From the NCBI GenBank assembly GCA_010094045.1, contig ML986605.1, positions 153,202 through 217,201 on the forward strand: 64,000 nt of DNA, read 5' to 3'. The notes under the pieces are model-generated. The model worked only from the letters and a program-made list of their open reading frames with translations, had not been told where the DNA came from and did not search any database. The position numbers were made by a program, and so were the translations under genes. Positions 11,716-51,192 of this stretch are shown piece after piece (within the stretch, counting starts at the first letter, position 1; each line of letters opens with the position of its first letter). Source of the DNA: Lojkania enalia (Eukaryota > Ascomycota > Dothideomycetes > Pleosporales).

Positions 11716-13742
11716 CTAGTCGATGTGCCACTCATGATCCGAGTTCCTAATATAGGGGCTTAGACCAAGAATATCCTTAGATTGCGTCGCTTTAACGTCT
11801 CCATTGCCTAAGAATGCGAACCTGTTCTTGTACCTATATGTGTACTCATAGTCTTCCCAGCGAGGGTCCTTGATGGACTTAAGGAAATGGATCGTCTACA
11901 ACTATCTATTAGTACAATTTGCCCCTTGAGGGATGTAGGGTCTGGGGTTCGAGACAACTTACCGCGCCTGGCCACAGATAAATCCTGTTCTTAATTTTCC
12001 CGTCCTTGAACCAACTACGGCATTCCTCTTGCCACACAGTGTTGGCATGAAAGGTGTCAAAGTGGGCGTAAATCGCATCAAGGGCCTCCTGCTTAACTGT
12101 CATAGCCTTGATACCCTCTGTTTGCATCTTCTTCATACACTTGATTGAATATTCGATCGTGGTCTCAATTGATGGAATGAGTGTGCCATTACTCCAAGTC
12201 GCGCCTGGACCAACGATAGTGTAGTAGTTAGGGAATCTAGGCGCAGAAACACCAAAATAGAGGTTGGGTCCATTGGTCCAATCTTCCTTGATCGATTTTC
12301 CGGCACCGTTAATCACCGTGAAAGCGGGCTGGAAAGCCACTTGGAAGCCTGTGGCACAAACAAGGATGTCCATCTTATGGACTTTGCCATCCACAGTCTC
12401 AATACCTTCAGGCACTACTCGTTTGATGCCATCGAAAACGGGGGTGACATTGTCCTGTACAAGTGCCTCGAGGTACCCATCTCCTGGAGAAATTCTACGA
12501 CATCCAGGTGCCCATTTCGGAATGATGAATTCCTTGAGCTTCTCATGCCCGGGGCCCATGCGCCGATGCATCTCCTTCGTGATCACGTCGCGGAACTGGT
12601 TAGACAGATCCGAGCCCTGGATGTACATGCCGAACAAGCTGTTAATCTCGGCTTCAATCCTCTTGCGGAAATCAAGATGGTATTCTGGGTCTTCAGCGAA
12701 TTTCTTTTTATCCTCCTCTGTGAAATCGTACTGGCGCTGTCCGGGATTGACATCCTGACCTTTCTGGAGGTCGTTGGTGAGAGCACCAGCCCCAAAGGGT
12801 GGTGAAATCCAGGTTGGGCTTCTCATGTATACTTGTACTTCTTTGCATATCTTCTGAAGAGCGGGCACAATCTGAACGCTAGTCGACCCTGTGCCAATGA
12901 CGCCAGTGGTCTTTCCATTAAAGTCGACGCTATGGTTCCAATGTGCGGAGTGCATCAAAGGTCCCTTGAACTCGTGGAGCCCTTCAATGTCGGGCCACTT
13001 CCATGTATTCAGAATGCCTAAGGAAAGTGAGTGACAGATTGTAGTGCCAGAGGACAGGTTTATTACCGGTGCCATTGACGAAAACATGTGCCCAGTCCTT
13101 CGATACTTCACCAGTCTTAGGGTTCGTAATTGTCAGATTCCAAATACCCTCTGCATCGTCCCATCGGGCCTCGGTGATCTTGCTGTTCAGTTTCATGTAC
13201 TTCTTGCTTCCTATGAGGCGGTCAATGCTTTCTAAAATCTACAACGGGCTTTTTAATCAAATACCATGTCTTTCTGCGAAATCCTCAAAATACCCTTGGA
13301 TCTCTGCGCCGCTGGCAAAGAACTGACTCCAATCTGGTTTAGGGTCCCAAGTGAAATTATAGTCATGCGACGGAATATCGCATGCGACGCCTGGGTAAGT
13401 GTTCTCGTACCATGTTCCTCCAAATTGCGAGTTCTTCTCGAAAAGCGTCAACTCCCATGATCCTGGTGAGAGCATTCTCTCCATTTTGTAGGCCAAACAA
13501 AGGCCAGAAGCTCCGGCTCCACAGCAAGCCACCCGCATTTTAGTTGGCTTTGAGTGGTACTGGTTCAAGATCTTGTAAGGTCCTTCCACATTGGCCGGCG
13601 GGTAGTCGTACATTGGCGCAATGCCATTCGCGCCATCAATGGCCGAGGGCATCTCGGAGGGTGCCATTTGGTCGGAGATCTGCTTGAGTCTTCTCTGAGA
13701 TCGTTCGGGGGAAAAGTTGCGAAGAGGGGTAGCAGTCGGCAT
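11716..13742 (-). CDS. Baeyer-Villiger-type flavin monooxygenase
   Basis: Four exons (13742-13265, 13231-13067, 13017-11963, 11895-11716), 625 aa, close to the normal BVMO size. It should insert oxygen next to a ketone carbonyl to give an ester or lactone, using FAD, NADPH and O2. Visible motifs: FAD-binding GAGASG at residues 75-80; the BVMO fingerprint FxGxxxHxxxW as FKGPLMHSAHW near residue 231; a second dinucleotide motif GTGSTS for NADPH; and the CATGF motif. About 65 residues precede the first Rossmann fold. The in-frame TTG upstream is not used; the ATG at 13742 is the first. It heads the metabolic cluster and is co-directional with the acyl-CoA ligase. Substrate not predictable from sequence alone. 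Confidence 0.92.
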
Positions 13743-14526
13743 GGATGTAGTTACGCCTTTGTGAGACTTCGACTGCAAGTCTTATAGGAGCGTGCGAGAT
13801 AGAGCTCTCACACCACTATATGACGATCTGTTGATGATTCTGCGAGACTTTAACCGTCTCTTGGGGTGCCGTGCATCTTATTCCAGACACATAGACTTGC
13901 GAGCTCAGTCTGGACTGCAACATCGGCCTAACGAATCCCGCGGCTTAGACCCTGGAGTGCCACCACGGCAATTGGCTCCTTTCTGCTGGCCGAGAGAAAC
14001 TTCATGGCAGGCTCTGTCGCGGGTTGATTCGCCCTAACACGCTGCAGCTGGGCGGATATGTATTTGCGAAGATGTCGGAGCGGGTTCCGATGCGTGCGCC
14101 ATGTGATTCTAGCATCGGCTATCCTAATTGGGTAACCACAGCTGCAACAGAACTCCAGTATTTATTCTGGAGACTTCGTTTCTCAATTCTATACTTTATG
14201 GTAATGGCGTGAGCTATCGGCACTCGATTCCCAGCGTCTAGCATGCTCGAGGCTGCAATGCTGAGTATATACCATTCTACCACCTGGTTGGTCCTTGCGC
14301 CTGGGCTCTATAATACCATTCCTCGGGGAACATCGGCGACAGCAGATCTGTGGCCGAGGACTGTGAATGGATATACTAAAAACATCTCATTGTAAATATC
14401 AATGACTAGGCGCGACTGTATCATTAAAATACGTCGCCTACTTCAAGCTTTTCTTACTATTCGAGCTGTTCGAATACGAAAGACCACAATTAAGATAATT
14501 CTTAAGGGATCCAATGCTTGGTAGAT
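13743..14526. promoter_or_regulatory. BVMO upstream region
   Basis: About 780 bp upstream of the BVMO and downstream of the acyl-CoA ligase. It holds CCTCGG at 14321-14326 and its complement CCGAGG at 14354-14359, an inverted pair 28 bp apart. CCTCGG is the motif described for FarA/FarB in Aspergillus. Single copies are expected by chance about every 2 kb, so only the pairing is notable. Small frames here show no domain. Confidence 0.4.
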
Positions 14527-16384
14527 TTATAGTTTCGCCGTCGGTCTCTGTCCCTTTATAGCCTCTGCATCCTTTTTCGCCCAGTCCTTGACTACTTTTC
14601 TCATAATCTTTCCGCTCTGCAGCTTGGGGATCTCGTTTACAAATATAATGCCGCCTACTAGCTGTTTATGCTTTGCTACCTTCTGTTTCATGTGCTCATG
14701 GATGTGGTCCTCCTTGACTCTACCCTTAAATTCGTCTTTTAGATGCACATAAGCTCGAGGCCATTCCTGACCGTCCAAAGTAATTCCCACAGCCGCCGCA
14801 TCAGCGATTGGATCAAACTCAAGAAGTACAGCTTCTAGTTCCGCTGGAGCCACTTGGAGTGCGTTGACCTTGATGAGTTCCTGCTGACAACTTTAGCTAC
14901 GATTGAGTCGGTGTCTGAATTCTACAACAAACCTTTTTTCTGTCAACGATCCAGAACCAGCCATCCCTAACGACGGCAATGTCGCCCGTCTTCAACCATC
15001 CATCAGGGCTGAGAGATTCTTTCGTTGCGTGCGGATTGCGCCAATATCCGAGACAGATATTTGGGCCTCGGACATGCAATTCGCCTGGCTGGCCTTGCGC
15101 CACCTCTCTGCCGTCATCATCAAGAAGCATGCATTCGCAGTTCGGATCCAGTTGACCGACGCTTCCAGAACTGCTAGGCATAAGCTACATTCTCTTATAC
15201 CCAGGTAAATTTCAGATTACTTACTCGTCATTGACACCTCCAGGAACATGGATAGCTCCACACGTAACCTCGGTCATACCCCATCCCTGAACAATTTCGC
15301 ACCCAAGTTTCTTCGAGATCTCATTCTGCAGTTCCTTCGATAGAGGAGCTGCCCCACAAAGAATATCTGTCACACTGCTCAAATCGTACTTTGCAGTCTC
15401 CGGCCTCTTGCTAAGCATCACCATAATCGGAGGGGCTACTTGCAAATGCGTGACTCTGTGTGTCTGGATAACCCGCAGGAACTCTTCGTATTGAAACTGC
15501 TTCATTATATAAACTGGTATCTGCAGCTTTTGTGCCATTGCAATGGTGTATAGTTGTCCATAAGCGTGATAGAGGGGTAAGAATCCGATCCACACCTCCC
15601 TCGGCCGTGTTGCTGCATCCCAAGGCTTTTTCAAATATCGCATATATATCGTCTGGTCCAGATTTGCGACTAGATTGTGATGGCTGACTTCGACGCCCTT
15701 CGGTAGTCCAGTTGTTCCGGAAGAGTAATTGACCGTTGCGGTAGTGGTCGCGGCATGCTTCTCAGTTAATTTAGGGAAATTGTATGCATCACCCTCAGCA
15801 GGTGATGGCAGAAAGTCTCTCCAGTCTCTCAGGCCTCCACTTGAGGCATTGGGGACATCTGAGAAGAGGAAAACATGACTGTCCGGGAGTCCAGTTTTTC
15901 GTGCTGCTTCAACGGTTACTTTTGCAAGCGATGGGTGTGCGAGGATAAATTGTGCGCCTGTATTTGATATCTGATGTACCATTTCTGTGAAATTTTAGTA
16001 AATATTCGGTTTCGAAAATTCAAGTCCCATCCATGGAAATTGTGTCCTAGTAAGTCCGCGTTACTGACCTGAGACGGTATACGCGGGATTTGCTCCGCTG
16101 AATATCCTCCTCGACCCTACAATTCCCAAATATGCTACCGGAACGAAAATGTGGTTCGGTGTGTGGATCATTATTACCTCGCCTGGCTTGCTTCCCAGCA
16201 TATCTAGGCCCATTGCAAGTCGCTTTGACCATTGCAAAAGTGTTCTAGGTGTTAGGTGATGATCTGTATTCTTCGCATCTATCCAGATTGGGGTATCTGA
16301 AGGGGTCTGGTCGCTTGGAAATAGATATTCTAATAAATTGCATCTTGGAATATCCAATGGCGGGAAGGGTGAGGGGAAAGGCAT
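14527..16384 (-). CDS. Peroxisomal 4-coumarate-CoA-ligase-type acyl-CoA synthetase
   Basis: Four exons (16384-16069, 15984-15225, 15173-14933, 14880-14527), 556 aa, the usual length of the 4CL/luciferase-like branch of the ANL family. It activates a carboxylic acid with ATP to an acyl-AMP and then to the CoA thioester. The AMP-binding P-loop YSSGTTGLPKG is near residues 192-202, followed by GWGMTE, the TGDIAVVRDGWFWIVDRKK hinge region, and the catalytic Lys in KLQSGKIMRK near the C-terminus. The protein ends in AKL, a peroxisomal targeting signal type 1. It is divergent from the neighbouring SDR, which ends in SKL, so the pair probably shares a promoter and a compartment. Acid substrate unknown. 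Confidence 0.93.
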
Positions 16385-16740
16385 GGCGTAAGATTTGATA
16401 ACAGAAAGCGTTTGATCGTTCAGCCGACACCGCACAGAAAGAAGCAACAGAACAAGCTTCCAGCGGTGTTAAAGCAACCACCTATCTCCTTTGCATGACG
16501 TAGCATTATAAAAGCGCATGACTCTATGCATGCTAGTTTCGCTGCGACAGCCATCCCACAGCCGGGGATATCGGCGGGCGCACTGGCCGTTGAGGTTAGA
16601 CCGAGGATATCGATCTCCACGTCCGAGCTACTCCAACCTCAGAATATACTTGCAGCCGGTCGGGGCGCCATGTCTGAACATACGACTAGGACAAAAAGAT
16701 TTGTTGCTCTTCTACGATCGACGCATACCTTAATACAAGA
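16385..16740. promoter_or_regulatory. Shared divergent promoter of ligase and SDR
   Basis: A 356-bp interval between two outward-facing starts. It contains a TATAAAA at 16507-16513 and CCGAGG at 16601-16606. Both flanking proteins carry peroxisomal signals, which makes coordinated control likely. Confidence 0.55.
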
Positions 16741-17642
16741 ATGTCTGACTTAAGGAATTTTGAGCGCATGTTCCGCCTCGACGGAAAGGTTGCTCTTGTT
16801 ACAGGAGGTTGGAAGCCCAGACTTAATTCCATTGTATGTATTAGTGCTGATAGATGAATTTTGCAGGATCAAGAGGCCTTGGGCTTCACACTGCGACTGC
16901 CTTCCTCCTCGCCGGTGCAAAACTCGTCATCGTTTCAGCCCGCAAAAATGAAGGCCCACAAGGGATTGACCAAGCTGTGGAGAAGCTCAACAAACTGAAC
17001 GTCCCGGGGAAAGCTATTGGAATTGCAGCAAACGTTGCTGACACGGATGAAATCACGAGGCTTGTAAAGGAGGTGCAGAAGCACTCGAGCAAGCTTGATA
17101 TCCTCGTCTGTAATGCAGGTGCGACTTGGGGAGGGCCCTTCGAACCCACGCCAGACTCGAGCTCAAAGAAGGTGCTGGACTTGAACGTCCGAGGTGTCTT
17201 CAATTTGGCGAGGTTGTTCACTCCCATGCTGGAGAAGGCCGGGACCCGGCAAGATCCGTCGCGAATCATCATCGTCAGTTCAACCGCAGGTGTCACAGTC
17301 CCGCACGTTGGTGACCACGGCACCATCATGTATAGTGTCTCCAAGGCTGCCGCAAGCCACATGTCGCGCCAGCTCGCTGTTGAGCTAGGCCCGAGAAACA
17401 TTACGACAAACACTGTTTCCCCGGGCTTCTTTCCCTCAAAACTAGCTAGTGGTTTGATTGATATACTCGGTGGGGAAAAGGAGCTGAGTGACTGGAACCC
17501 CCGCAAGAGGCTCGGTGAACCAGAGGATATTGCTGGCATCATGGTTTATTTGGCCTCTCCAGCAGCAAGCTACGTGAATGGCGAGGATATTTGTGTTGAT
17601 GGAGGTGTAAGATTTGCTCAGGGTAGACAGTCCAAGCTTTAA
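16741..17642 (+). CDS. Peroxisomal short-chain dehydrogenase/reductase
   Basis: Two exons (16741-16807 and 16867-17642), 280 aa. Classical SDR: cofactor loop TGGSRGLG at residues 21-28, structural NAG motif, catalytic Ser at residue 160 or 161, and YSVSK with Y178 and K182. It should interconvert a hydroxyl and a keto group with NAD(P)H. The style (FRLDGKVALVTGG, then DGGVRFAQ at the end) resembles 3-oxoacyl reductase/RhlG-type SDRs, so a 3- or 4-oxoacyl-CoA is a reasonable substrate class. The C-terminal tripeptide is SKL, the canonical peroxisomal import signal. Exon 1 lies upstream of a 59-nt intron, and the joined reading restores the glycine motif. Confidence 0.92.
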
Positions 17643-17933: not shown

Positions 17934-18891
17934 TTATCTACCATTCGCTCCATTCGCCTTCTCCTTCTTCGTTTTCTCAATTCTCGCAAGCTGATTCTCC
18001 ATACTCGTAAACTTCATCATTGCTTCCATATTCTCATCACAGAACTTATACGGCTCCCTATAATAAAAATTCTCCCCGTTTACCTCAACCGTCAACCCCC
18101 ACGCGTCCTTCTCCGCAAACCTTCGGCCCTTTGAATCCTCTAAATCTCCCCCATCAACGACTTTAATCACGGCCTTGACTAGTGTCGACATAGGCGTGAA
18201 ATATTCATCAGGGAACGACTTCCATTCCTCACCGTTTAGAAGATTAGTTCGGATTGTGCCGGGGCACGTTGCGTAGGTGCGGATGTTCTCAAGGTGGTAG
18301 CAGTAGGAGATTGCCCTATTGAATTGGATGACGGCGGCTTTGGAGCCAGAGTACATCGGACTACTCTAATTAGCACTTGCTCAATTGCAGTGCAAGCCGT
18401 GTGCATCCGAAGAACACTCACCAGAATTCAGAAGGATAGAGACCGCCGCAGCTCGCTGTCATTACTAACGCAGGGCTCGTTCCATCGATCTTCGGGGATT
18501 TTCGGAAATAGTGGAGCGCAAGGTAGGACGTGTTCACCACCGCCTTGAAATTGATATCGATGCTAAGCTGATTCGGTTCTGGAGGCGGTCTGCTCAAATC
18601 ATGTTTCTCGTAGAAGTTATCGCGTTCCACTATTCCAGCGTTCGCGTAGACAAAGTCAATGCGCCCAGAAGCGTTGAATGCATTTTCAAATGCTGAGGTC
18701 AGCGAAGCATAGTCTGTGACATTGGTTTGGTGGAAATATGCATTTTTGAGCGATGATATGGCCGCTTTGCCAGCGGATGCATTAAGGTCGACAATGTGGA
18801 GGTCCCAGTCGCCGCGTGAAGAAAGGACTTCGGCAACAGCGAGGCCCATGCCCGAGGCACCGCCCGTGATAAATGCTGCTTTTCTGGACAT
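17934..18891 (-). CDS. Short-chain dehydrogenase/reductase, 15-PGDH-like
   Basis: Two exons (18891-18422 and 18360-17934), 298 aa. The N-terminus has TGGASGMG, an acidic residue after strand 2 (HIVDLN) that favours NAD(H), the NAG motif, an active-site Ser in MTASCGG, and YSGSK. The intron falls just before the YxxxK segment. The pattern matches fungal SDRs related to 15-hydroxyprostaglandin dehydrogenase, which oxidise secondary alcohols to ketones. The C-terminus is a charged KKEKANGANGR tail with no peroxisomal signal. The gene is convergent with the SKL-type SDR and divergent from the aldehyde dehydrogenase, so it probably shares its promoter with the latter. Confidence 0.9.
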
Positions 18892-19723
18892 AGTAGTCCG
18901 CAAAATAGGACAAGACGTGTTTTAAGCTAGATATGTTGAGACTACGCAAAAACAATGAAACGTAAATATGATATGATGTAAATGGCTAACACATATGAAG
19001 CTCGATCTAGGATGAAGGCACTTGTATTTGGGGAGCATCTGCGGAGGCTGAATGATGTGTTTCTCCGTGATACGGTTCTATTCTGGAGGGTAAGGGAGGC
19101 TTCTTCCGAGACGAGAGCAAAATAGCTTTAGAGTTAGTGTCCCAAATCTCAGTCTCCCGGTATACGAAAGTGTTCACATGCATCACTAATTCTCGATCTC
19201 TACGGATTGTTCGGTATATTTTCAATAAGCTAAACTTCAAAGCCCAGTATGATTACAATCCCAAACGACAATACACGTCGTCTTCCAGCCTGAACACTAC
19301 ATTTACGATACCGCTGTATAGCATCTTGTACACGACTCGCAAAATACGGAGCCCCAAAGACTCCTTACTCAGGTGAGACTTGCAAAATCTTGGCGCCGTC
19401 ATTGGCACTATCGGTAGACGTCGGAAAACAGAACGCGAGGACGCGTTCACCGTCATCCGGCGCCCAGGGGCACCAAGACACGTCCACCGATGATCGAACG
19501 TTCCATAGGAGACAGGGTCCGGGTATGCAGGCGTTCGCTGCCGATCATGCTCGGACTTAGGACATTTTCGAGCGGGCAATGGTGTAGGTGGGGATTAGGA
19601 TCAGAGCTTGGGTGGCTGTTTGTACTCTAATACCCCTCTTCTTTCCTGGATCGAGTGCCACCTTGACTTGCGCATACTCTTTACTATATCCCTTGACTTC
19701 TTATTCTCTTCACAATCGCAATC
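18892..19723. promoter_or_regulatory. Divergent promoter region of SDR and aldehyde dehydrogenase
   Basis: About 830 bp between two outward-facing starts. Short overlapping frames (19007-19240, 19137-19376, 19253-19579) show no domain. No clear operator repeat was seen. Confidence 0.45.
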
Positions 19724-21257
19724 ATGGCATTCCCGTGGTCTACAAAGGATCTCCCGAAACAAATATTCATCAACAACGAATACGTCGCATCGAAGAGCTC
19801 GAGAAAGCTTACTCTTCACAATCCGAGAGACGGCTCGTTAGTTGCTAACGATGTTGCACTTGCTGGCCAGGAGGATGTAGATGCTGCTGTTGCAGCAGCT
19901 GAGAAGGCGCTTCCAGCATGGAAAAAGATTGCGCCTGGCGAACGCCGGAATATCATGCTCAAGTTTGCCGAACTGGTAGAAAAGCACGGTGTTGCCATTG
20001 CTGAGTTGACCCGTATCACTTTGGGGGCGCCGTATAAAGCTTTCGGCGCCTTTGAAGTCGGCCTCTGCGCTGAGGTAAGTCTAATTCATCACCATTACAA
20101 TCACAACAGGAATTCGCGGATCCTAACCCATTTTTATACAGGCATTCAAGTACAATGCAGGCTGGATTGACAAGTATGGTGGCGAATCGTGGCCACAAGG
20201 CGATGGTTTTCTCAAGATCGTACGAAACGAACCACTAGGTGTCACAGCCGGTATTGTACCCTGGAACGGCCCTGTTGGTACGATTGGTCTCAAAGCTGCG
20301 CCTGCCCTAGCCACTGGCAACTGCTTCATTCTCAAGCCCTCAGAAAAGACCCCCTTCTCATCGCTCGCTCTCGGTACTTTAATCAAGGAAGCCGGCTTCC
20401 CGCCAGGTGTGTTCCAGATCTTATCCGGAGATGGCAGCACAGGTGCTCTTATCGCCTCACATATGCGCATCCGCAAAGTATCTTTCACTGGTAGCATTCC
20501 AACCGGCAAGAAGATCCAGGAGATGGCTGCCAAGTCCAACCTGAAGCGCGTAACTCTTGAACTCGGTGGCAAGTCCCCGGCCGTGGTCTTCGATGATTGC
20601 AATCTAGACAACGCCGTTATGTGGACTGCGAATGCCATCACGGCCAACACTGGGCAGGTATGCTTCGCAGCGTCTCGAGTCTACGTACAAGAGGGCATAT
20701 ACGACAAATTCATTGAAAAGTACAAGGAGGCTATGATGCAGAAGGCCAAGGAAGTCGGCGACCCAGAGGCCGACGGTATGAACATTGGCCCATTGGTCGA
20801 CGAGGCGCAATTCAAGCGTGTTTCGGGCTTCATCGAGCGAGGTCAGAGGGGACAAGGCAAGCTGCTTGTCGGCGGCCAGCGAGTCGGTGACAAAGGTTTC
20901 TACATTGAGCCTACCGTCTTTACGGACGTAGATCCAAAATCTGAAATCCACTGCGAAGAAATCTTCGGCCCAGTCTCCGTGGTTAGGTCTTTCAAGACTG
21001 AGGAGGAAATCATGAAGCTGTCCAATGACACAAATTTTGGGCTAATGGCTGGTGTTTTCACGCAGGATATCAACAAGGCCCTGCGGGTTGCATCGGAATT
21101 TGAGTCAGGCATGGTCGGCGTTAACTGTGTCAGCATGATGTTCATGACGACGCCGTTCGGTGGAAGTAAGGAGAGTGGTATTGGACGCGAGTGTGGTATA
21201 CATGCACTGCGGGCCTTCACGGAGCCTAAGACAATTATGGTAAACATGAGCTATTAG
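19724..21257 (+). CDS. NAD(P)-dependent aldehyde dehydrogenase
   Basis: Two exons (19724-20074 and 20142-21257), 488 aa, the normal length of the ALDH superfamily. It oxidises an aldehyde to the carboxylic acid. Visible catalytic residues are N159 in PWNGP, E257 in LELGGKSP and the nucleophile C291 in NTGQVC. The coenzyme motif SFTGSIPTG and the C-terminal PFGGSKESGIGRE motif are intact. It carries no targeting signal that I recognise and is probably cytosolic. Within the cluster it could oxidise an omega-oxo acid released after an alcohol dehydrogenase step. Confidence 0.94.
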
Positions 21258-21480: not shown

Positions 21481-22712
21481 CTATGGAATAATCCTCGCCT
21501 TCCTCATCCGATCAAACACCCCACCCCAAGCCTGCAACGTATCCCTCTCCTCAGTGAATCCAGTTCCATACATCTTGCTCATATCATACTGCCGATTGAA
21601 ATCAAACTGCGTCATCAAGAAATACTCAAATCCCGGGAAAATCCTCGGACTATCCGCATGCCCCGTCTGCAACCCTTTCTCCTTCTCCAACTTATGCCAC
21701 GTATCCATATGCTCTTTAATATACTTTCTTATCTCCGGGGAATTGGATGACGGACCCGTGCCCTTGAGGCCAAAGTATGAGCACAAGATCGGCCATTTGA
21801 TGGACCATTGTGACGGCGTCTTTGCGTCGGCGACGTTGAACCCTTCACCCTTCTGCGTGGGCGGGATGGTCAGGGAGATGTGTATCGTTTGGCGGGCGAT
21901 CATGTCGGAGCTGCTATCGTTGCTCAATGCCTTCCAGCTCTTTTCGGACCCCGGGAACGGACATTCTGCGCCTTCGCCGTTGACTTCTCGAAAGAGCGAG
22001 AGGTAGATGCCCATGACAGTACCGAGGGAGTAGAAGTTTTGGTTGGGCACAAAGCCGATGATGATGTCTGGTCTTGTGTCGCACCAGTTCCATTTCTTGT
22101 CTTTGGCATATCCATTCAACCAGTCCATTTGCGGGTGGTAGAAGAGCATGTCATGATATGGCTGCTTAAGGCGGGGTTGGGATTCTTTGTGTGGGACGTG
22201 CAGGTAGTCGGTCGGGTGATTCTCTAGGAGGTGACAGCCGTCTAGTGACATAATTAATCTTTTGAACTTTTTGAGGAACGAATGCAACTAAGGGAGAACA
22301 TACACATCTTTGCTCCAGTCTGCAATACTACGAATTCAAGCTTAGGACTAAGCTTGTCCATGGCGATGGTGCTGCGCTTGAACATAGAAACAGCTTCTTC
22401 CAGCTCTTTCTGCAGATCCGTACCCGCCTTGTAGGCAAGGTAATACACGTGTGTCACATTCTCTATTCCCTTTATTTTGTCTTTCATGGTAGTTTCAAGC
22501 TCTTCTTGTGAGCCCTCGAGCAAATCGATGCCGGAAACGATGTCTAAGCGCGGATCTTCTGGCCATTGCGACTGTTTTTGAGACAATTGTCGATTTGTGA
22601 GGGCATGTACTTTCGACCAAACACCAGGTTTGGGGTAGTCGTTGAGGATTTCATTGACAAATGACCAGCCAGTGACGCCCGAAGCGCCAAAAACGAGCGC
22701 AGACTTCGACAT
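21481..22712 (-). CDS. PRISE-like NAD(P)H enone reductase (SDR superfamily)
   Basis: Two exons (22712-22304 and 22241-21481), 389 aa. N-terminal Rossmann motif GASGVTGWSF, then LTNR, HVYYLAYK and, across the intron, LQTGAKMYGCHLL. These are typical of the PRISE family (progesterone 5-beta-reductase/iridoid synthase-like), which saturates activated C=C bonds in enones. The FYHPQMDWLN and ARPDIIIGF-type segments of the family are present here as FYHPQMDWLN and TRPDIIIGF. In the cluster it could turn an enone into a saturated ketone that suits the Baeyer-Villiger enzyme. This role is inferred from the family. The donor at 22303 gives phase 1 and restores the conserved Tyr. Confidence 0.85.
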
Positions 22713-23684: not shown

Positions 23685-25689
23685 CTAGTGGAACTCGTTT
23701 CTCTCAGCATAAACATCGTTCTCCAAGTACACCTCCGTCTTATTCGTCATCTTAGGCGTCAAATCCTCGCATAAAAAGCAGCAAATTAAACCCAAGCCAC
23801 CAAAGGAAAGCGAGCTCAAAGCTACAATCTTCAATGCATGCGCATAGCTCCACTGGAAAGCCAAACCTGCAGCTTGAAGTGCTTCCACCGTCGTTCCCGG
23901 GACTGCACCGATGGCCCCTGCGCCGAGCGGAAACGCAGCGAGCAGCTTCTGAGCATTCTCAGGGGTCATTCCTGCATCGATGGCCGCCTGGGGGACGGTA
24001 GTTGCGGCGCGTGTAGTTTGCGTGTTTGTGAGGATGGTAGTGTAAATGGCTTGGGCAAGGGAACCACCAGCGTAGCGAGCCATGCCTGCCAAACCGCCTG
24101 AGAAGCCCAGGTCTTGTTGTGGAACGCCAAGCTGCGTGAAGGCTACAGATTCATATTGAGCCCAGCCGAAGAACGCTGCCAATTGTTAGCGAGGGATACT
24201 CTAACGAGGGATGAGTGTGTCCACGTACTTGCGTTGATGCAACAAAACGCAATCATCATGCCTTTGTTGAAAGGCGTGCAAAGTCCCATTAACGCTCCGA
24301 AAAGTGTCATTCCCGTCCATGAAATGATCAGAGTCCACTTCCAGTGGCCCAATAAGTTTCCGAACGCTACCAACAAACAGGCTCCGAACACAAGACCAAC
24401 ATTGGGTGGCAATGTGAGCAGCAATTCGGTACTTCGTGAAGTATTGGCGTCGAGGTAGAAAACATTTACCATCGTCGGCCTACAAAGGTAAGCAAATGCA
24501 AATCATCGAAGAACCAGTCTCAACTTACCAGATGATGTTGACCGAGTAGTAGAACATAGTGACAATAAAGGCGACAATAAAGGGCGCCGTAAACTCACGG
24601 CCATTATGAGAGCGGAAGAGATGAGGCGGACAGAGCTTGTAGGGGACATTTGAAACAGTTTCCCAGACGCCGAAAACCGCAATGAGCACGAATCCAACCA
24701 CCATCGGAGCTACGACAGTGACATCGCTGCTTGACTTGTATGTCGTGTTGATAATACCAACAAGAGTCAAGCAAATACCCGGGATAATAAGCGCGGAGCC
24801 AACATAGTCAAGGCCCTTGTATGCCTCATGCCACGGGACACCCTTCGGGTGTTTCGGGGGTTTGTAGTAGAGAACGATGGCCGCAAGCGAAAAGAATTGC
24901 GCAATGAAGCCGCCCCAGTAAATGTATTTCCAATCTCCATTATCGATGGCGTACTAGAATAGTTAATAACAAACACCGTGTGTAGAGACTCTCGACTCAC
25001 TCTTCCAACAATAGGTCCGATGATGACAATTAAAAAGACAAAGCCATCTGATATACAGATACCAATATGTCGATATTTGTTTGGCAACAGCTCCGGGATG
25101 CTGCACATTGCCATCTATAGGATATCAGCGCGTGGTCAGGGACTCTGCAGGCGGTCACATACCTGACAAAATCCGCCACCAAATCCGGTAATAGCTAAGC
25201 CAGCAGTGAACTGAGTTGCTCCTGACGTAGTAGCAGTGATTATAAATCCGACGCAGCAGCATGCGTTACCGAATATGAGGAACAGTCGTCGTCCAAAGAG
25301 ATCGGAATTTGCTCCAGCGATCAAGAATCCGATAGCATTGCCAGTCGTATATGCAGGAACATACCAAGCCATAGAGGTCGGCTCGCCGAATTGGATAGAC
25401 AGCTTGCTCTGGAGTGCTGCAGTAGTTGGAACGGGCCAGAAACTAAGGCCAAACGTCGCGGAGAGAACCTTCAGAATATTAGGATCCTTCAGGATATGCA
25501 ATCCTTCTGTCAGAAACGTACAAAAATGACCGACCATGTTTTCCAAGTGACGGTGACGGTGTCACCGCTAAGTGTGGTCAAGGCACCTGGAGGAGGCGAG
25601 TCCGACGACACCTGCTCAACCTTCTCGATTTCATGTTTCTCGGTGGAGATGGGGCGTTGGGGGTTGTCTTCGACATTTTCAACCGCCAT
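23685..25689 (-). CDS. Major facilitator transporter, TRI12-like (14-TM type)
   Basis: Six exons (25689-25522, 25468-25163, 25114-25001, 24953-24529, 24479-24229, 24175-23685), 584 aa. Hydrophobic helices run through the protein after a charged cytosolic N-terminus rich in Glu, Pro and Ser. Exon 2 has the loop 2-3 signature in the form GANSDLFGRR, and WPVPTTAAL and YIYWGGFIAQFF fit the TRI12/siderophore-type drug:H+ antiporter branch. It should move a small organic compound across the plasma membrane using proton motive force. The direction (uptake of a growth substrate or export of a toxic intermediate) cannot be told. Its place inside the cluster suggests the cargo is the substrate or product of these enzymes. 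Confidence 0.88.
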
Positions 25690-27516: not shown

Positions 27517-28756
27517 CTAAAATACAACAACCTGTCTCTTCTCTGCCTTCCCAGCATGCATATCTGCAAACATCCTGGGAAGATCTTCAATTTTATTATA
27601 CTCCACCTCAGGCTGTATATTATGCTTCCCAGTAAAATCGACAGCCTTCTTCATCCGCTGGGGAATACTCGTGCTATCTGCTTTGATGCGATATCTCCCA
27701 GTCGTAAGATCAAAAGTGTTGATGAAATCCAAGCCCTTAGGTGCAATGCCAATGACCATCAGCAAACCCCCTGTTCGTAGCACGTTCGGGGCGCCGGCGT
27801 ACGCGGCATTGGAGGCGCTATAAACGGCCGCTGCATGGCAGCCTTTCCCCGTAAGTTTTTTGATGTCTTCGGTGTAGTTCTTGTTTGTCATCGAGTTGAA
27901 GACAGCATCAGCTCCGGCATTCTTGGCGGCTTCAAGTTGTGCATCGTTGATGTCGAGGCCAATTGTTTTGATGCCCATCTGCAGTTCGATCAGTCATGAT
28001 TTGCGATGTAGCGGAATACTCAAATGGCTGGAGGGTAGTGGAAAGGTTCACTCACTGCTTTTGCGTATTGAATAGCATATTGACCCAAGCCGCCGCATCC
28101 AATGACAGCAAGCCATTGCCCAGGTTGCAGTTCACAGCTGTCTACAGAGTGGAACGAAGTAATGCCGGCGCAGAACAAGGGTGCAGCTTTCGACATATCT
28201 AGATTCTTTGGCAGTAACACTGCGTTCTGCCAATCAACCTGTAATTCGTTAGTGTGGATCCTCCCTAGAATCGAGTGTTTACGCATACAACCACATACTC
28301 CTGGAAATACCCATCCACAACAAACCCCTGAAGCTTCGAGTTCCCAGTTTCTTGCGCCCAACATTAGCCAATTCACAACCAAAGCAATTTTCAGATTCTC
28401 TTACCGCATCGAAGGTTATGCACCATGCACCCTTCACACTCAAAACAACATCCAATAAAGTAATTGAACCCAATCGCATCGCCAACCTTGAACCCCTTGC
28501 CTTCCGCTGCTGGATCAATTTCCTCAATGAATCCGACGCCCTCATGACCAAGTGTGACCGGATAATCTGGTCGCATCTCGGTCATCAAATCAGAATGGCA
28601 TAGCGACGCAGACTGAATCTTGATGAGGAACTGTCCTTTACCAGCTTTGGGTTTCGGGATGTCGTTGATGACAACCTTTTGCTGCTTCCTACGCAATCAG
28701 CGATCCGTTCAGGTCATCAAGAGAGTGACGTACGGGTCCCACTGGCCGGCTTTCAT
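27517..28756 (-). CDS. Zinc-dependent alcohol dehydrogenase (MDR family)
   Basis: Five exons (28756-28734, 28688-28405, 28350-28289, 28238-28056, 27978-27517), 337 aa. The first exon is only 23 nt and encodes MKAGQWDP. Catalytic zinc ligands appear as C38 in SLCHSD and H56 in LGHEG. A structural zinc lobe follows with closely spaced Cys residues near 88-102 (FECEGC and NLRC). The NAD(P) fold has GCGGLGQYAIQYAK, then an acidic residue (GLDIND) that favours NAD. It should oxidise an alcohol to an aldehyde or ketone, or do the reverse. It could feed the aldehyde dehydrogenase or make the ketone for the BVMO. Size and motifs match yeast-type ADHs. Confidence 0.92.
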
Positions 28757-29435: not shown

Positions 29436-30843
29436 TCAAACAATACCCCAAAACTCCTCCGGCTCCAACCTCCACTTCTTACACAGCTCCTGATACCTCT
29501 TCGTATACTCCTCCGCCCTTGCCCTATACTCATTTGCCCTCTTCATCTGATCTCTCCCTACTTGATGTCTATGCGCTGAGTCAGGGCCATCAGCAACCCT
29601 AACGAACCTCGCATACGTCCATATCTCCGGAAGTGGTGTGTGTTGCGTTAAGCCCTGTCCACCATACATCTGCATCGCCTCATCAATGACCTTGAGCAGC
29701 GCGTTCGGCACCATGATCTTGCTTTGAGCAATGGCATACCGTCCTGCTTTGTTACCTTGAAGATCCATGGTATCAGCGGCGTTGAGAACAACTTGGCGCA
29801 TAGCGTCGATCGTCATCCGCATATCAGCTATCCGCTCAATGTTGCTGTCGAACTCCCCAATGAACTTTCCGCGTGGCTTCTTGCGAGGCTCAAAGCATCG
29901 AACGAGTGCAAGCTCATACGCACGTTCGGCTTGGCCGATTAGGCGCATGCAGTGATGGATTCGCCCCGGTCCGAGACGACCTTGGGCAATCTCGAATGCT
30001 CGGCCAGGGCCGAGGATGATGTTTTCGATCGGAACACGGACATTCTCATAAATATATTCGCCATGGCCTTCTGGCGCCCAGTCATAGCCCATAATGGAAA
30101 GGTTCCGGACTTGTTTTAGCCCCGGTGTTCTCGCAGGGACAACTAGAGTTGTATGCCTATTCCACGGGTTGGGATTGGTGGGGTCGGAACAGCCCATCAG
30201 GATGAACAATTGCATTTCATCATTGTACTGGCAGTTTCCATAGAGCTTTCGTCCGTTGATTATTACCTCCTTGTCTGTAATCTCCATTCTTATACCGATT
30301 TGTGTGGCGTCGGACGAGGCGACGTCCGGCTCTGTCATGCTGTATGCGGACGACATGTCGCCGTTCATAAGAGGAAACAGCCATCTTTTCTTCTGCTCAG
30401 GAGTGCAATATTTGGCAAGGAGTTCGATGTTACCGGTCTCGGGGGCGTGGCAGTTCATAGTCTACAAAATCAGCTCTGTGTTCTATGTAAGTATCAGAAA
30501 GCCCTACCTGCGCACCCCAATACACTCGTCCCATTATCTCGGCGCAGCATGAATACTCCAAGTTCGTCAATCCAGGGCTTTCCTCGAAGTGATTAGGCAA
30601 GAACAAATTAAATAGTCCCTGCGCCTTGGCTTTGTTGCGCAGCTCGTGAATGATGGCGGGCGTCTTCCAGCGGTCGGCTTTCAATTGTGCCTTGTAAATG
30701 CGTTCGGCGGGAATACATTCTGTCTCAATCCAATCGTATACTTGCTGGATTTTTTCGATTGCAATAGGTCGCAATTTTGCTTTGACCCATGGAGGGATTC
30801 GCGCGAAGGCGGGGTTGTCGTCCATGGAGATGCTCGATGCCAT
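29436..30843 (-). CDS. Acyl-CoA dehydrogenase, ACAD10/11- or LvaC-like
   Basis: Two exons (30843-30508 and 30461-29436), 453 aa. An N-terminal helical domain is followed by the flavin/substrate strand motif SSAYSMTEPDVASSDATQ and the helical C-terminal domain with MQMYGGQGLTQHTPLPEIW. These show an intact FAD enzyme of the acyl-CoA dehydrogenase family. The variant with RVADGPDSAHRHQVGRDQ resembles the ACAD10/11 branch rather than the short- or medium-chain enzymes. That branch eliminates phosphate from 4-phosphoacyl-CoA in animals and in bacterial LvaC. An APH-fold kinase lies about 1.6 kb away, which strengthens the idea. It has no peroxisomal C-terminal tripeptide (ends GIV), so its compartment is open. 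It is divergent from the hydrolase gene. Confidence 0.92.
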
Positions 30844-31205
30844 TGCAACAGTACGCTAGAAACACTCGATTGCTACGGCGGTGAATAAAGAAGGTCAATA
30901 AATTGCACTAGAAATATTCTAACACATGTAGTAACCATATTGAAGCTATGCCTGATGGAGGATCTGGCGTGAGCCTTTGGATGGCCGAGGGTGTTGTGCG
31001 GACGGAGGTCGGAAGTCTTTACGCGTAGAAGCTTGAGCTTGGGCCCCTGACGTCTCTCTGAGCGGATTCTTCCAAGACAGCTCGCTATAGCCCACTTGCG
31101 TGGAGAACCCGTGATTGGCGGCCAAGATACATTTTATACGGATAAGTGTCGCAATGGAGGGACACATAGGCTCATGTTGCATTGAAATCTACCTAAGTTC
31201 TCATC
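30844..31205. promoter_or_regulatory. Divergent promoter of ACAD and hydrolase genes
   Basis: A 362-bp interval between outward-facing starts. CCGAGG occurs at 30985-30990. The short distance implies shared control of the acyl-CoA dehydrogenase and the hydrolase. Confidence 0.5.
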
Positions 31206-32316
31206 ATGTCTGAGGGATTCGCGAAATCATGGCTTGAGGTGAGTATGCGAGCGTTGTCCATTGCAAACGATCATGCTCTGATAATTTCACAGTTTGAGAA
31301 GGAATTTGGGGAGCGTCTTCTGCTCCATGGCTCCGTTCAGGATTGCCTTGAGGAGTTTGGGAGAATCGGAGCGAAGATGGCAGGAATGTACACTTTTCCA
31401 CCCCCTGACCCTGCTGTAAAGACCCAAGACATGACAATCGAAGGTGGACTGAAGGTGCGAATATACACACCGGAGGAATACGGAGGCGGAAAACCCGTTG
31501 GAGTTTATTTCCATGGCGGAGGCTGGGCAATGGGGGACATTGCAGGCGACGACGCTTTCTGTCGACAGATATCAAAAGGTGGAGGTGTCGTTCTCGTGTC
31601 TGTGGAGTACGGACTTGCTCCACAGAACAAGTACAACGAACTAATTGGTGATTGCTACAAGGGCCTTCAATGGGCGCTAATGAATGCGAAGAAATTGGGC
31701 GGAATCGAGGGGAAGATCTTTACATCCGGTGTGTCTGCTGGCGGCCAACTCGCCCTTGGCTTGGCTCTCAAAGCTGTAGATGAAGGGCTTGGAGATTCTC
31801 TAGTTGGTGTTGTGGCGGAAGTTCCTGCAACTGTACACCCAGATGGCGTTCCAGCAAGTCTTAAACCGAGTTGGACGTCCTACGAGGAGCATGCCGAACA
31901 CACAATTGATAGTGCGGATGCCATGCGTACATTCTGGGGTGAGAGGACCTGCCAGAATATCATTTACTAGATCTAACCGGGCATAGATGCTTTCAACCCA
32001 CCGCCGACTGATCCATACGCTTCCCCACTTCTTCACGACAAGCTCAATTGCCTCAAGAAGGTATATCTCACAGTAGCTGGACAGGATACCTTGAGAGATG
32101 ATGGCCTTCTCTTCAAGCAGAAACTTGATGAGAATGAGTAAGTTCACTGGATAGCTCGCCAAGACTATCTCTAACTACAATAGGGTGCCCAACAAGATGG
32201 ACCTCTACGAAGGATACCCTCACTATCACTGGGCGTGGCCTTCCAAAACCCTTGACGCACCGAGGAAGGAATACATTGCAAATCTTGCCAAGGGAGTGCA
32301 GTGGGTAGTATCATAG
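31206..32316 (+). CDS. Alpha/beta hydrolase, HSL-type esterase or lactonase
   Basis: Four exons (31206-31238, 31293-31938, 31987-32137, 32184-32316), 320 aa, phases consistent. The hormone-sensitive-lipase signature HGGGW begins at residue 85 and forms the oxyanion hole. The nucleophile elbow GVSAGG has Ser159. The acid is probably in QDTLRDD, and the His in the C-terminal YPHYHWAW segment. It should hydrolyse a carboxyl ester. Next to a Baeyer-Villiger enzyme the natural idea is opening of the ester or lactone that enzyme makes. Exon 1 is 33 nt and is followed by a GTGAGT donor. It has no signal peptide, so it is intracellular. Confidence 0.91.
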
Positions 32317-32488
32317 CCCGGATTTCATTAGTAGTCTGAAATACAATCCACGCTTTTCCCCAGCAATTTCGCACCAACACCAAACACCGTCTTTGATATA
32401 AAATAGGGATATTCTTAGATTGGAACGTGTTTAATATTCTAACAAACTCCCCTCTCCCCCTCTCTGACACGAATTTAAAACAATAAAT

Positions 32489-33597
32489 TTACAAATTCGC
32501 CCTCTTCCTACCCCCCTCCTTCGCCCTCCTCACAAGCTCCCAACAAATCTCAGCAGCAGGCCCCATCTCATCCCCCACCTTCTTTGCCTCAAGACTGCTC
32601 GCCTGTCGAACCGCGTACCTTGCTCTAATCCCCTGGAAGATAATACTATCCCTCCACATGGCAAACGCAATGCTCCAAGGCAACTCCGGAGTCGGGTCCC
32701 AGCCCGCGACTTCTGCATACCACGTGATGATCTGGTCACGGGTCGGCAGACCCGGGGCATAGTGAGGGGATGAAGGGGCTTGGTAAGAGGAATGGAAAGC
32801 CGGATGGGAGTTGCGGCGATCGAGAGAGAAAGAGGTGATAGTGTACGGGACAAGGAGGTTCGAGAGATCAGACAAGGGATGACCGATCGTCGACATCTCC
32901 CAACTGTTCATCATTAGGTTTCACATTCCTTTCTATAATCACGGCATATAGTAGGATGAGTGGCGGTGGGGAGGAGACCACTTACTCCAGGATCCCAATA
33001 ACCCTCGGCTCTGTCCGATGGTACACGAGATTATCAATCTTATAATCGCCATGGATAGGCGTCCCCCTATCCCTCGGCCTCGCCCTTGTATCCCTAAAGA
33101 ACGCGACCAGCTCGCCCATCCGCGGTACCTCACCGACCTCCTCCCCGCTCTCGATATCCTTGACTTTACTCTGCGCCTCGCCCAACGTGCCAAACGTCTT
33201 AATCTGGCGATCGTAGAACCCGCTCGACTTGCCGTATCCCTCCAGCCCAACATCCTGTGGGACCAGCCGGTGCAGTTTGGCTAGCGTGCGTACGGCATCG
33301 CGCCACATCTCTGTCCTGTCGTGTGCGGAGACGTCAGGGATGGACGGCTCGGTGAAAATGCGGCCGTCTAGGAACTCCATGATGTAAAAGGGACTACCGA
33401 CTACGCCGTTGTCCTCGCACAGGCAATACACTTTGGGGACCGGAACATCGGTGTTTTGTAGTGCGTCTAGGATCCTATATTCCCGTTCTACCTTGTGTGC
33501 GGTCTTGGACACGAGTCTGCGAGCAATTAGAACATCCATCTAGTAATTTCCCCTGCGAGAATGGAGTGGGTGGTGGTGTAGTGTGCTTTCTTTTCCC

Positions 33598-33641
<44 letters not shown>

Positions 33642-33968
33642 ATATATATATATATATATAGCTTGGGGGGGAACGTACTTGCCTGGCGGCTTCTTGCGCA
33701 TGACAAACTTTGCATCATTCAAGTCTGTGATTTGGTACGTTGGATTCGATTGTCCAAAACCGAACTGCTCGTCTCCTTAGCACCGATCCACACACATACA
33801 GATTGCAATTAAAACTTAATTTCTCGCCGCATAAGGAGGTGGCTTTAAGAGGAGGGGAAGGATCGTTACCTGTTTCAGCGAGATGGGCGTTTTGATATCG
33901 GGCACATTGCGCTCGATATAGCGTTCCAGCGACGCGACGTCAATAGGTTGCCGCACCGGTCCTGCCAT
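32489..33968 (-). CDS. APH-fold phosphotransferase (ACAD11 kinase-domain / LvaA-like)
   Basis: Four exons (33968-33870, 33764-33679, 33516-32986, 32903-32489), 376 aa. Aminoglycoside-phosphotransferase fold: [10 protein letters not shown] glycine loop, RKKPPGK with the ATP-binding Lys, the catalytic loop HGDYKIDN at residues 217-224 and the metal-binding Asp at 239 in GILDWE. The sequence matches the kinase part that is fused to acyl-CoA dehydrogenase in animal ACAD10/11. Here it is a separate gene beside an acyl-CoA dehydrogenase. The predicted reaction is ATP-dependent phosphorylation of a 4-hydroxyacyl-CoA; this is inferred from family and context. Intron 2 holds a poly-A run and a TA microsatellite, which can break automated models. 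Confidence 0.9.
33590..33661. repeat. Poly-T and TA microsatellite inside the APH gene intron 2
   Basis: On the plus strand a C/T-rich tract is followed by about 27 T residues (interrupted poly-T) and then about ten TA dinucleotides. It lies within the intron between exons ending at 33679 and starting at 33516, so it does not affect the protein. Confidence 0.9.
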
Positions 33969-34802: not shown

Positions 34803-36638
34803 CTACCTCCAATGATGCGGTCTTCTATGGCCGCCCTTGGGCTTAAAACAAGGCAACCACCTATCGAGCGCAGCATACCAATACCCCCTACTAACCTCCC
34901 CGTCGGGACTCGTAATTCCCGTCGTCCTAAAATCATAACAGTGCTGTGCATTCTTGAGAACAAATCCGAAAATCTCGTCTTCATCCTGCTCGTCTCCGCA
35001 TTTGGGCGGCTTCGTGAAAGCCCTCGGATGAGGCGCCCAGGGCTCGCCCGAGAGGGGCGAGAGGGTGCGCCAGGGATCGAACTCGCCGCCAGACCAGTAG
35101 AGGTTTGAGGGCCTCAAGTCCCAGCCACCGAAGACACGGTTGGTGAGGTCGGTGCGCGGCCATTGGGGGAAGAGGGGTGCTGTGGCTGTCGGGAATTGGC
35201 GGTGGCAGATGTCCTTTTGATGAATAAGAGAGTTGTATTTTGAGATTAGTTGGTGTGGGCCTAGGTTAGCGGACTGGAAGTAACCTACAGAATTATCAGC
35301 CTGCTGTTCTCTACGACCATGCGCCGATAGATAGACTTACCCCATTGAGTGCAGTACTGCCATGTCCAGGCAATAGAGGATGGATCCGTGAATTTGCGAT
35401 TGAGATCGCAGTTGCCCTTCTGTGTGAGATCGCCAGAGCATTTGGTTTCTAGATAAGTGTTCACCATGTCTGTAAAATATGGGTATTCTGCCCAACGGGA
35501 GACGGTGTAATTAGCACCTTTAATAGCCGCCCAGCCCTTTGCGGGAGCTGTCTTCTTCGTTGCAGGATCTGTTTCTATCCAATCGCAGAAGTTGCGGAGA
35601 GAGTTCTTGCCACCCTCGACACCGTATGACTGCCACAGATAAAATATGACTACAAGGGCATCGGCGAAGGTCGGGTTGCTGTTACTTGCAGCACCGAGAC
35701 CGAGAAATTGTTCCTTAAGTTTCGCTGCGGTGGCAGGCCTCTCCATTAGCCTGTCCATATACCTGACGGCTGCCTGGATATCCCGAGTGCAGTTCCCCCA
35801 CCCGTAGTGATTCATTCCGTCCCAGACAGGCTCAAAATACACGGACATGTCCGTTTTGGCCTGCGTTGGGGCGGAGGACGCAAAACCGGCGAATATGGTG
35901 TTAGGATACTTGTCCCGCATGAAGGCTGCCCGCATGGCCGGATATGAACCTCCAACAAAGATCCATGGAGTCTTGTCGGGCGTTAAAGTGTAATTGATAT
36001 TCTTTCTCTCAAATTGCTTAGCAAACCTATCGACATCTGCGAGTGACTGCTCTGTGGTTAACCACCTGAAAACTTCGGGTGGTGTGTTGATGTCAATAGG
36101 CCCTGGGGTCGAATTGCCGTCTGTCACAATTAGTCTTTCGTACTACTAATTGAAGGTGGGTCGACATACAATATCGATGCTCCCACACGATGCCGAGGCC
36201 ATTGTATTTGTCAACCATCTGCTTGAAGAATGAAGTCTCATTCTGCAGCCGAAACAGAGCATTTGGTTCAGCATTGGCCTCTCCAACGTCGTAGAGAAAC
36301 ACAGGAGCGCCAGGCTTGTATGCAGCTTCCCTCACCCAGAATCGATTGTAGAACGTTCCCTGCCAGCTGTAGTCGCCGTTCTTGGCAAAGTTGTCCAAAG
36401 GAAGCTCGACGTATTCTGGTTCTATTGTTTCTTCTGGTGGAGGAGGTGGTTCGGCATACGTCATGGCCGAGACTTTGAGCGACTTTGCAATCCCTAGATC
36501 AGGTTCCATTGGAGTGCCGTCGGGTAAAAGGCCCATGTCCGCCATTAAGCTGAGCTTACGATCCCATGCTCCCTTGGAAGCTCCAACGCCCTCGAGGAGC
36601 GCGAGCGCAAGAGCACACGCTGAAACGGGTAAAAGCAT
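34803..36638 (-). CDS. Secreted S28 serine peptidase (prolyl carboxypeptidase-like)
   Basis: Three exons (36638-36170, 36120-35341, 35284-34803), 576 aa. An N-terminal signal peptide (MLLPVSACALALALL) implies secretion or vacuolar delivery. Family S28 features include the FYNRFWV and EHRYYG blocks (the latter completed only across intron 1), the nucleophile motif GGSYPA with Ser, and the C-terminal NLYWSGGEFDPWRT segment that carries the catalytic Asp. The final His is likely near the CGDEQDED to GFVLKNAQHC region. Such enzymes cut after Pro near chain ends at acidic pH. Several NxS/T sites are present. It borders the metabolic cluster but has no clear link with its chemistry. Confidence 0.9.
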
Positions 36639-50935: not shown

Positions 50936-51182
50936 TACATCTACAATGCTTAACTAAATTTTGACGAGGGCAACATGTATGGTTCAGTCTAGAGCTTCGG
51001 CAAAAATGGAATCAGTATAAAATCTGTCATGGGGATTTTTGGCTAGTCTGCCGAGCTGTATCAGATATCGACGTACGATATCACGGTCGATATCACGCCG
51101 GATATCACGCTGGATATCAGCTGATATACCCCTTTTTCATGTACATAAATATGGCCCGCTGGCCATCTTCAATCAACCAGTT
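50830..51182 (+). repeat. Direct repeat copy 1 flanking the assembly gap
   Basis: This 353-bp sequence reappears at 51193-51545 with no difference that I can find. It includes the last 100 bases of the pogo element and the start of the inverted-repeat element. It ends exactly at the run of N. Confidence 0.92.
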
Positions 51183-51192
51183 NNNNNNNNNN
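51183..51192. other. Assembly gap (10 N)
   Basis: Ten N bases. The same 353 bp stands on both sides, so the gap most likely joins two contig ends that overlap, and the real gap size may be negative. Confidence 0.97.

Follow-up and report, generated by a model that had tools for sequence, protein, structure and literature searches.

An ACAD10/11-type kinase and dehydrogenase encoded by separate genes in Lojkania enalia, and their linkage to a hydrolase gene among fungi

Described systems and the Lojkania locus

Papers published in 2024 and 2025 used biochemistry to assign the pathway of the mammalian proteins ACAD10 and ACAD11, and both of its steps, the kinase reaction and the elimination of phosphate, have been demonstrated for these enzymes and for bacterial relatives (PMC11342911, PMC12440821, in the passages available). 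Here we describe a stretch of 64,000 nucleotides, referred to below as the window, from the 58-Mb assembly of the fungus Lojkania enalia (Pleosporales), in which the span 29436-33968 carries, both intact and both on the minus strand, separate genes for an APH-fold kinase of the ACAD11/LvaA type and for an acyl-coenzyme A (acyl-CoA) dehydrogenase (ACAD) of the ACAD10/11/LvaC type. The new element is the linkage, among fungi, of one clade of such kinases, the dehydrogenase and a hydrolase. The kinase and the dehydrogenase quite probably act as a split unit for the dehydroxylation of 4-hydroxyacyl-CoA, within a fungal catabolic module that would include the hydrolase.

Ricinoleate is a 12-hydroxy acid whose chain-shortening should yield 4-hydroxydecanoyl-CoA. 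In the available passages of a study of Rhodosporidium toruloides, mutants in RTO4_14567 and RTO4_10408, which code for ACAD11-like proteins, are more strongly impaired on ricinoleate and methylricinoleate, and a strain lacking RTO4_14567 no longer grows on ricinoleate (PMC5922974). A survey of ACADs in Fusarium sacchari groups fungal enzymes with ACAD10 and ACAD11, the terms "phosphotransferase" and "kinase domain" having no match in the portion of its text at hand (PMC11817166), and the suberin transcriptome of Aspergillus nidulans includes inducible peroxisomal acyl-CoA dehydrogenases (PMC4117967, from excerpts). A literature search found no description of a fungal unit made of kinase, dehydrogenase and hydrolase, although most subscription journals lay outside its coverage and absence from print is unproven. 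The original prediction knew of no described fungal cluster of this kind, but genetic evidence that a fungal ACAD11-like protein acts on a hydroxy fatty acid is already present in the excerpts cited above (PMC5922974).

The dehydrogenase gene (29436..30843, minus strand; ATG at 30843, stop at 29436) codes for 453 amino acids in two exons, 30843-30508 and 30461-29436, separated by a single intron (30507-30462). The kinase gene (32489..33968, minus strand; ATG at 33968, stop at 32489) has four exons (33968-33870, 33764 or 33767 to 33679, 33516-32986 and 32903-32489) and three introns. Our model gives 376 amino acids and the Lojkania enalia copy in the database (P0001; 100% identity) has 377, the use of an acceptor three bases upstream accounting for the length. 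The motif HGDYKIDN lies within exon 3, and GILDWE is created by the junction of exons 3 and 4. Between the two genes, on the opposite strand, sits a gene for an alpha/beta-hydrolase of fold 3 (Abhydrolase_3, HSL/Est2-like; 31206..32316, plus strand; exons 31206-31938, 31987-32137 and 32184-32316), which is tail-to-tail with the kinase gene and divergent from the dehydrogenase gene; it is intact, with 338 amino acids in our model and 320 in the database copy (P0241). The 362 bp that separate the dehydrogenase from the hydrolase (30844..31205) contain one CCTCGG hexamer, at 30985, and are a possible shared promoter of the two genes.

Both genes predicted at this locus are therefore present as complete, intact models, and the kinase is complete as claimed, with HGDYKIDN and DWE in place; the hydrolase, passed over in the original prediction, is the most informative neighbour of the pair. 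Pseudogene status is ruled out for either gene by the full open models, by the identity of the kinase to a database protein and by a relative of the dehydrogenase that is 89% identical over the full length. That the pair was acquired recently from bacteria is unsupported, since both genes contain introns and every named best match is fungal.

Family placement and active sites

The nearest solved relatives of the dehydrogenase by sequence are 4hr3 (E 2.5e-93), human ACAD11 (2wbi, 4.7e-87) and mouse ACAD11 (8v3u, 2.1e-84), whereas the best conventional ACAD, a medium-chain enzyme, reaches an E value of only 2.8e-25. We placed it in a tree of 80 sequences, comprising 40 bacterial-type dehydrogenases (one from a viral collection) drawn from 81 non-fungal ones, 28 of the 120 listed fungal ones plus that of the window, two mammalian proteins, a second copy from Lojkania itself and eight conventional ACADs; the non-fungal set consists of the best 80 prokaryotic loci of a longer list, some of them short, and the single locus returned by a scan of the viral collection, which falls among the bacterial sequences. 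The dehydrogenase groups with ACAD10/11-type proteins, apart from the eight conventional ACADs (support 100/99), although long outgroup branches limit the rooting, and the fungal type forms one clade (100/100, stem 1.87) adjoining the second Lojkania copy (97/89). It is thus assigned, by its predicted protein, to the ACAD10/11 clade, in a strongly supported fungal subfamily.

According to the available part of the structural and mutational work on mouse ACAD11, residues R626, R631, H634, R637 and D753 are important and are required for phosphate elimination (PMC12440821). They align with R274, R279, H282, R285 and D403 of the window's dehydrogenase, which keeps intact the segment GRLGPGRIHHCMR, containing the HCMR motif and the upstream arginine for phosphate. 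The catalytic aspartate D403 is kept in an ADGPD motif that aligns with ADGPD in 8v3u and ANGPD in 8v3v, the latter fitting the inactive mutant described in the accessible text of PMC12440821. An ordinary alpha,beta-dehydrogenase activity is made unlikely by these residues. The tree and the diagnostic residues together bear out the ACAD10/11-like identity that had been proposed, the comparison being with ACAD11 and bacterial relatives, as LvaC is absent from the tree.

For the kinase, the nearest solved relatives by sequence are 3dxp (E 8.9e-64) and mouse ACAD11 (8v3v, 3.9e-51). The catalytic residues of its HGD, DN and DWE motifs, D219, N224 and D239 in the 376-residue numbering, are intact. 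Mouse ACAD11 has two CoA-contact arginines in its kinase, R86 and R176 (PMC12440821, passages available), of which R176 aligns with R165 here. A quick tree of 96 kinases was made. It includes 56 fungal kinases of the 120 listed, together with the window's and the second Lojkania copy (taken from that list), and four of six other APH loci tried from the 26 matches in the same genome, the other two having no usable frame. The fungal kinases form one clade (97), and the fungal set falls with ACAD11 and the bacterial kinases, apart from the four other APH proteins, with a Shimodaira-Hasegawa-like approximate likelihood ratio (SH-aLRT) support of 90 on a tree with long outgroup branches. The kinase thus appears, with moderate support, closest to ACAD11 and its bacterial relatives; the grouping with unrelated APH families that would have spoken against the original prediction did not occur, as judged from those four proteins and from a tree that does not include LvaA.

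In the dehydrogenase, the flavin-loop motif is NGRKLYGN, so that the four residues following NGxK are LYGN. The fourth residue is asparagine in 111 of the 117 fungal proteins that gave a match to the motif (120 listed proteins scanned), the variants being LYGN (75), LFGN (15), LYAN, IFGN and LFAN (five each) and rarer ones. Among non-fungal relatives of the ACAD10/11-type family, the loop ends in serine or threonine in all 75 proteins with the motif found (81 scanned; WWTS in 29, WWSS in 20), and the same holds for 11 of 13 conventional ACADs (15 scanned; for example MWIT, TWIT and QFIT). The threonine replaced here is the one that, we assume, contacts the flavin in medium-chain ACAD. The window's dehydrogenase thus lacks the Ser/Thr ending seen in other ACAD10/11-type members, and the asparagine is treated as a subfamily trait, not as a feature that defines the family.

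Only one other close kinase exists in the Lojkania genome (P0114, on contig C2; 60% identity; C-terminus KARL) and only one other close dehydrogenase (on contig C86; 43% identity over the longest matched stretch; C-terminus KSKL), three further dehydrogenase matches reaching just 20-25%. The second dehydrogenase has HHAMR where that of the window has HHCMR, and its flavin motif is WWSS. The second kinase and the second dehydrogenase are separate genes on two different contigs, neither of which is the contig of this locus. The idea that the split is unusual for Lojkania enalia, or special to this cluster, was therefore dropped: separate genes are the rule in this genome, as they are in bacteria. 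The protein searches covered 0.55 to 1.75 times the query length, and fused fungal forms, if any, fall outside that range.

Linkage of the three genes among fungi

Linkage was read from shared contigs and locus tags in the protein-match listings of kinases, dehydrogenases and hydrolases (120 listed each). The resulting table holds 75 of the kinases, 30 of the dehydrogenases plus that of the window, and 34 of the hydrolases; rows lacking a species name were left out, as were named ones from species that occurred in no other list. The clade of the window's kinase, called clade A, was defined by the 96-kinase tree (SH-aLRT 99 for 26 rows) and by close identity. In a tree of all 120 kinases, the common node of the 32 clade-A rows holds 38 and has a support of 67; the additional rows are P0110, P0111 and four close ones that carry no species name.

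Among the tabulated named rows, the window included, a clade-A kinase lies on the same contig as the dehydrogenase in 10 of 10 species, against 0 of 12 for other kinases (Fisher p 1.5e-6); for the hydrolase the corresponding values are 19 of 20 and 1 of 13 (p 4.6e-7). Without Lojkania, the figures are 9/9 against 0/11 (p 6e-6) and 18/19 against 1/12 (p 2e-6); all these p-values are too favourable, since species are not independent. The single case of linkage to the hydrolase outside clade A is Aaosphaeria, in which both kinases lie on one 2.85-Mb contig. In all 10 tabulated cases out of 10, dehydrogenase and hydrolase are found on one contig; these cases include species for which no clade-A kinase is listed, for example Bisporella, Glarea, Pseudocercospora and Aspergillus aurantiobrunneus. 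This would fit an order of events in which the dehydrogenase and the hydrolase came together before a duplicated kinase was added.

The genes are really close in several cases, because locus tags are two apart in three genera (Polytolypa AJ80_01941/01943, Myotisia FQN57_003687/003689 and Recurvomyces LTR86_002569/002571) and some contigs are short: 46 kb in Melanomma, with kinase and hydrolase, and 17.9 kb in Clathrospora, with dehydrogenase and hydrolase. Elasticomyces elasticus, left out of the table, has a kinase inside the clade-A node of the 120-kinase tree (P0111) and a dehydrogenase (P0152) on different contigs; it speaks neither for nor against linkage, since the locus-tag prefixes of the two also differ.

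Surroundings, proposed function and comparison with known systems

On the dehydrogenase side of the triad, the window carries genes for a predicted zinc alcohol dehydrogenase (27517..28696, minus strand), a major facilitator superfamily (MFS) transporter (23685..25546, minus), a PRISE-type reductase (21481..22712, minus), an aldehyde dehydrogenase (19724..21257, plus), two short-chain dehydrogenases/reductases (SDRs), an AMP-forming CoA ligase and a type I Baeyer-Villiger monooxygenase. One SDR (17934..18903, minus) is without a type 1 peroxisomal targeting signal (PTS1); the other (16854..17642, plus, coordinates that exclude an upstream exon) ends in the canonical QSKL. The ligase (14527..16384, minus; 555-557 amino acids depending on the splice choice) ends in TAKL, likewise a canonical PTS1. 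The monooxygenase (11909..13778, minus, with an approximate 3' end) is related to cyclohexanone monooxygenase and OTEMO and contains FKGPLMHSAHW, which we take to be the motif of the type I enzymes. A ligase and SDRs had been predicted to share one cluster with the pair. They are present, but four to six other genes separate them from the dehydrogenase, over a distance of about 10.5-13 kb, and the contiguous same-strand gene order of the lva type (kinase, LvaB, dehydrogenase, SDR and ligase) is not seen, the genes lying on both strands with the ligase and SDRs distant. These neighbours give a plausible route from ketone to lactone to hydroxyacyl-CoA, their co-function being a guess.

The hexamer CCTCGG, which we believe to be linked to fungal fatty-acid regulators, occurs 40 times in the window, where about 27 copies would be expected, and within 600 bp upstream in five of eight separate upstream regions. 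These numbers were judged too weak to count as evidence for fatty-acid regulation, and the hexamer is kept as a lead. It is also found in the divergent region 16385-16853, between the PTS1-bearing ligase and the PTS1-bearing SDR, as it is between dehydrogenase and hydrolase. By eye, genes like Zn2Cys6-type transcription factors, possible regulators of the cluster, were seen at 38671-40900 and 58954-61403 (both minus) and at 7573-10157, and pieces like an S28-type serine carboxypeptidase at 35285-36638 (minus), adjoining the kinase promoter. Further along, the GC content is 35% at 48001-52000, against 44-56% in other 2-kb steps save 52001-54000 (42%), which suggests an AT-rich, possibly repeat-derived block, and 54609-55097 (minus) holds a repetitive open reading frame (ORF) built of short repeats (VKVTEEVVKAAA-like).

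In the module that we favour, the CoA ligase would make 4-hydroxyacyl-CoA, the kinase would phosphorylate its 4-hydroxyl with ATP, and the ACAD10/11-type flavoenzyme would eliminate the phosphate in a redox-neutral reaction, yielding a 2-enoyl-CoA for beta-oxidation; D403 would serve as the base, and R274, H282 and R285 would hold the phosphate. The hydrolase would most likely free the 4-hydroxy acid, either from a gamma-lactone, by ring opening, or from a 4-acyloxy ester, by cleavage, and the substrate of the module is probably lactone-derived. The Baeyer-Villiger monooxygenase, the alcohol and aldehyde dehydrogenases, the SDRs and the PTS1-bearing ligase may supply ring-derived or chain hydroxy acids. 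What is observed is the intact genes, their family placement, the conserved catalytic residues and the evolutionary linkage of the triad; from these we infer every reaction, every substrate and the part played by genes beyond the triad. The published Rhodosporidium genetics, in the passages available, fits this reading (PMC5922974). In its most specific form it would be an undescribed fungal module for gamma-lactones and 4-hydroxy acids, with a lactone-opening hydrolase, a dedicated 4-hydroxyacyl-CoA kinase taken over after the duplication of a peroxisomal kinase, and a new ACAD10/11-type subfamily with a flavin loop remodelled from Ser/Thr to Asn to suit the redox-neutral elimination of phosphate, the module being fed in Lojkania by Baeyer-Villiger ring opening. 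We put this full version forward tentatively, as rather more likely to be wrong than right.

Several observations weigh against a split 4-hydroxyacyl-CoA unit with a linked hydrolase. A shared contig is not the same as adjacency; all three genes lie together on one contig in just three tabulated species, Lojkania, Lophium and Patellaria; and in Paraphaeosphaeria minitans, a clade-A species, the listed hydrolase is on another contig. Only 31 of the 81 non-fungal loci have a recognisable kinase, and none of the 81, some of them short, has a hydrolase match above 40 bits (one match, in L084, reaches 22 bits). In the kinase, R73 stands beside the presumed alphaC glutamate, and mouse R86, the published number of which did not fit the chain numbering, is without a sure match. 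The chemistry of the fungal subfamily may differ, because its flavin-loop motif is changed, LYGN replacing the mostly WWTS or WWSS loops of bacteria. The targeting signals also disagree: the kinase ends in KRANL, ANL being a weak PTS1-like signal, and the dehydrogenase in FWGIV, with no PTS1, and the predicted signals of the ligase and of one SDR are clear. Strict PTS1s are rarer in clade-A kinases than in the rest (17/32 against 71/88, p 0.005; 20/38 against 68/82 with the wider 38-row clade).

Among the listed dehydrogenases, 31 of 120 have a strict PTS1, some from Aspergillus among them, and the five closest to that of the window (P0121-P0125) have none. Clustered kinases (P0001-P0028) often carry a degenerate PTS1, unlike unlinked ones. 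A shift of compartment in the clustered kinases and dehydrogenases is possible.

The long stem of the fungal subfamily, its asparagine-ending loop, the presence of two distinct pairs in one genome and the nearby Baeyer-Villiger monooxygenase and PRISE reductase could also mean that the triad acts on a different phosphorylated hydroxyacyl-CoA, substituted at another carbon or derived from a ring acid, with LYGN tuned to it, and that the unlinked, peroxisomal-looking pair handles ordinary 4-hydroxy fatty acids. We consider this unlikely: the base and the residues that hold the phosphate are all retained, as one would expect if the geometry at carbon 4 were the same. The ACAD fold, the breadth of the APH family and the oxidoreductase-rich surroundings are what would be expected if an ordinary alpha,beta-acyl-CoA dehydrogenase and an unrelated small-molecule kinase had become neighbours by chance, yet the ACAD10/11 signature residues, the tree placement and the linkage to a single kinase clade (10/10 against 0/12) make such a coincidence very improbable. 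Equally slight are the chances of a biosynthetic unit, which would provide an enoyl-CoA as a building block or remove oxygen from a secondary-metabolite intermediate. The Zn2Cys6-like genes seen by eye, the MFS transporter and the Baeyer-Villiger monooxygenase would suit it, but inspection of the listed ORFs of the window by eye, with a Pfam scan of 10 stretches, picked out no polyketide synthase, peptide synthetase or terpene synthase, the PTS1s of the ligase and of one SDR fit catabolism, and pairs from the triad occur in species that we assign to several fungal classes.

If a split 4-hydroxyacyl-CoA unit is indeed what the locus encodes, the breakdown of 4-hydroxy acids and lactones in fungi becomes directly testable through a conserved version with a linked hydrolase. 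It would also offer a natural split of kinase and eliminase for dissecting the chemistry, an enzyme subfamily whose flavin site is changed, and a candidate reason for the consumption of gamma-lactones by fungi during flavour production.

The second pair of Lojkania itself belongs to the same two families and is also separate, and differs by its clear PTS1s, by WWSS and HHAMR, and by its location on different contigs. The basidiomycete Rhodosporidium toruloides has ACAD11-like proteins as here, phosphorylation going unmentioned in the passages available of PMC5922974. With mammalian ACAD10 and ACAD11, the locus shares the kinase and dehydrogenase families and the catalytic residues (HGD..DN; R626/R631/H634/R637/D753), and by inference the two-step chemistry; the mammalian proteins are each one fused polypeptide with a WWSS loop, whereas here there are two genes with an opposite-strand gene between them, a LYGN loop and a linked hydrolase. 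The bacterial lva operon, which codes, as described in the passages available, for a kinase (LvaA), a dehydrogenase (LvaC), an SDR (LvaD) and a ligase (LvaE), resembles the locus in that kinase and dehydrogenase each have a gene of their own, with a CoA ligase and SDRs in the vicinity. In Lojkania, by contrast, the genes are eukaryotic ones bearing introns and lie on both strands, the ligase and SDRs are 10.5-13 kb away, and an Abhydrolase_3 gene is linked to the pair.

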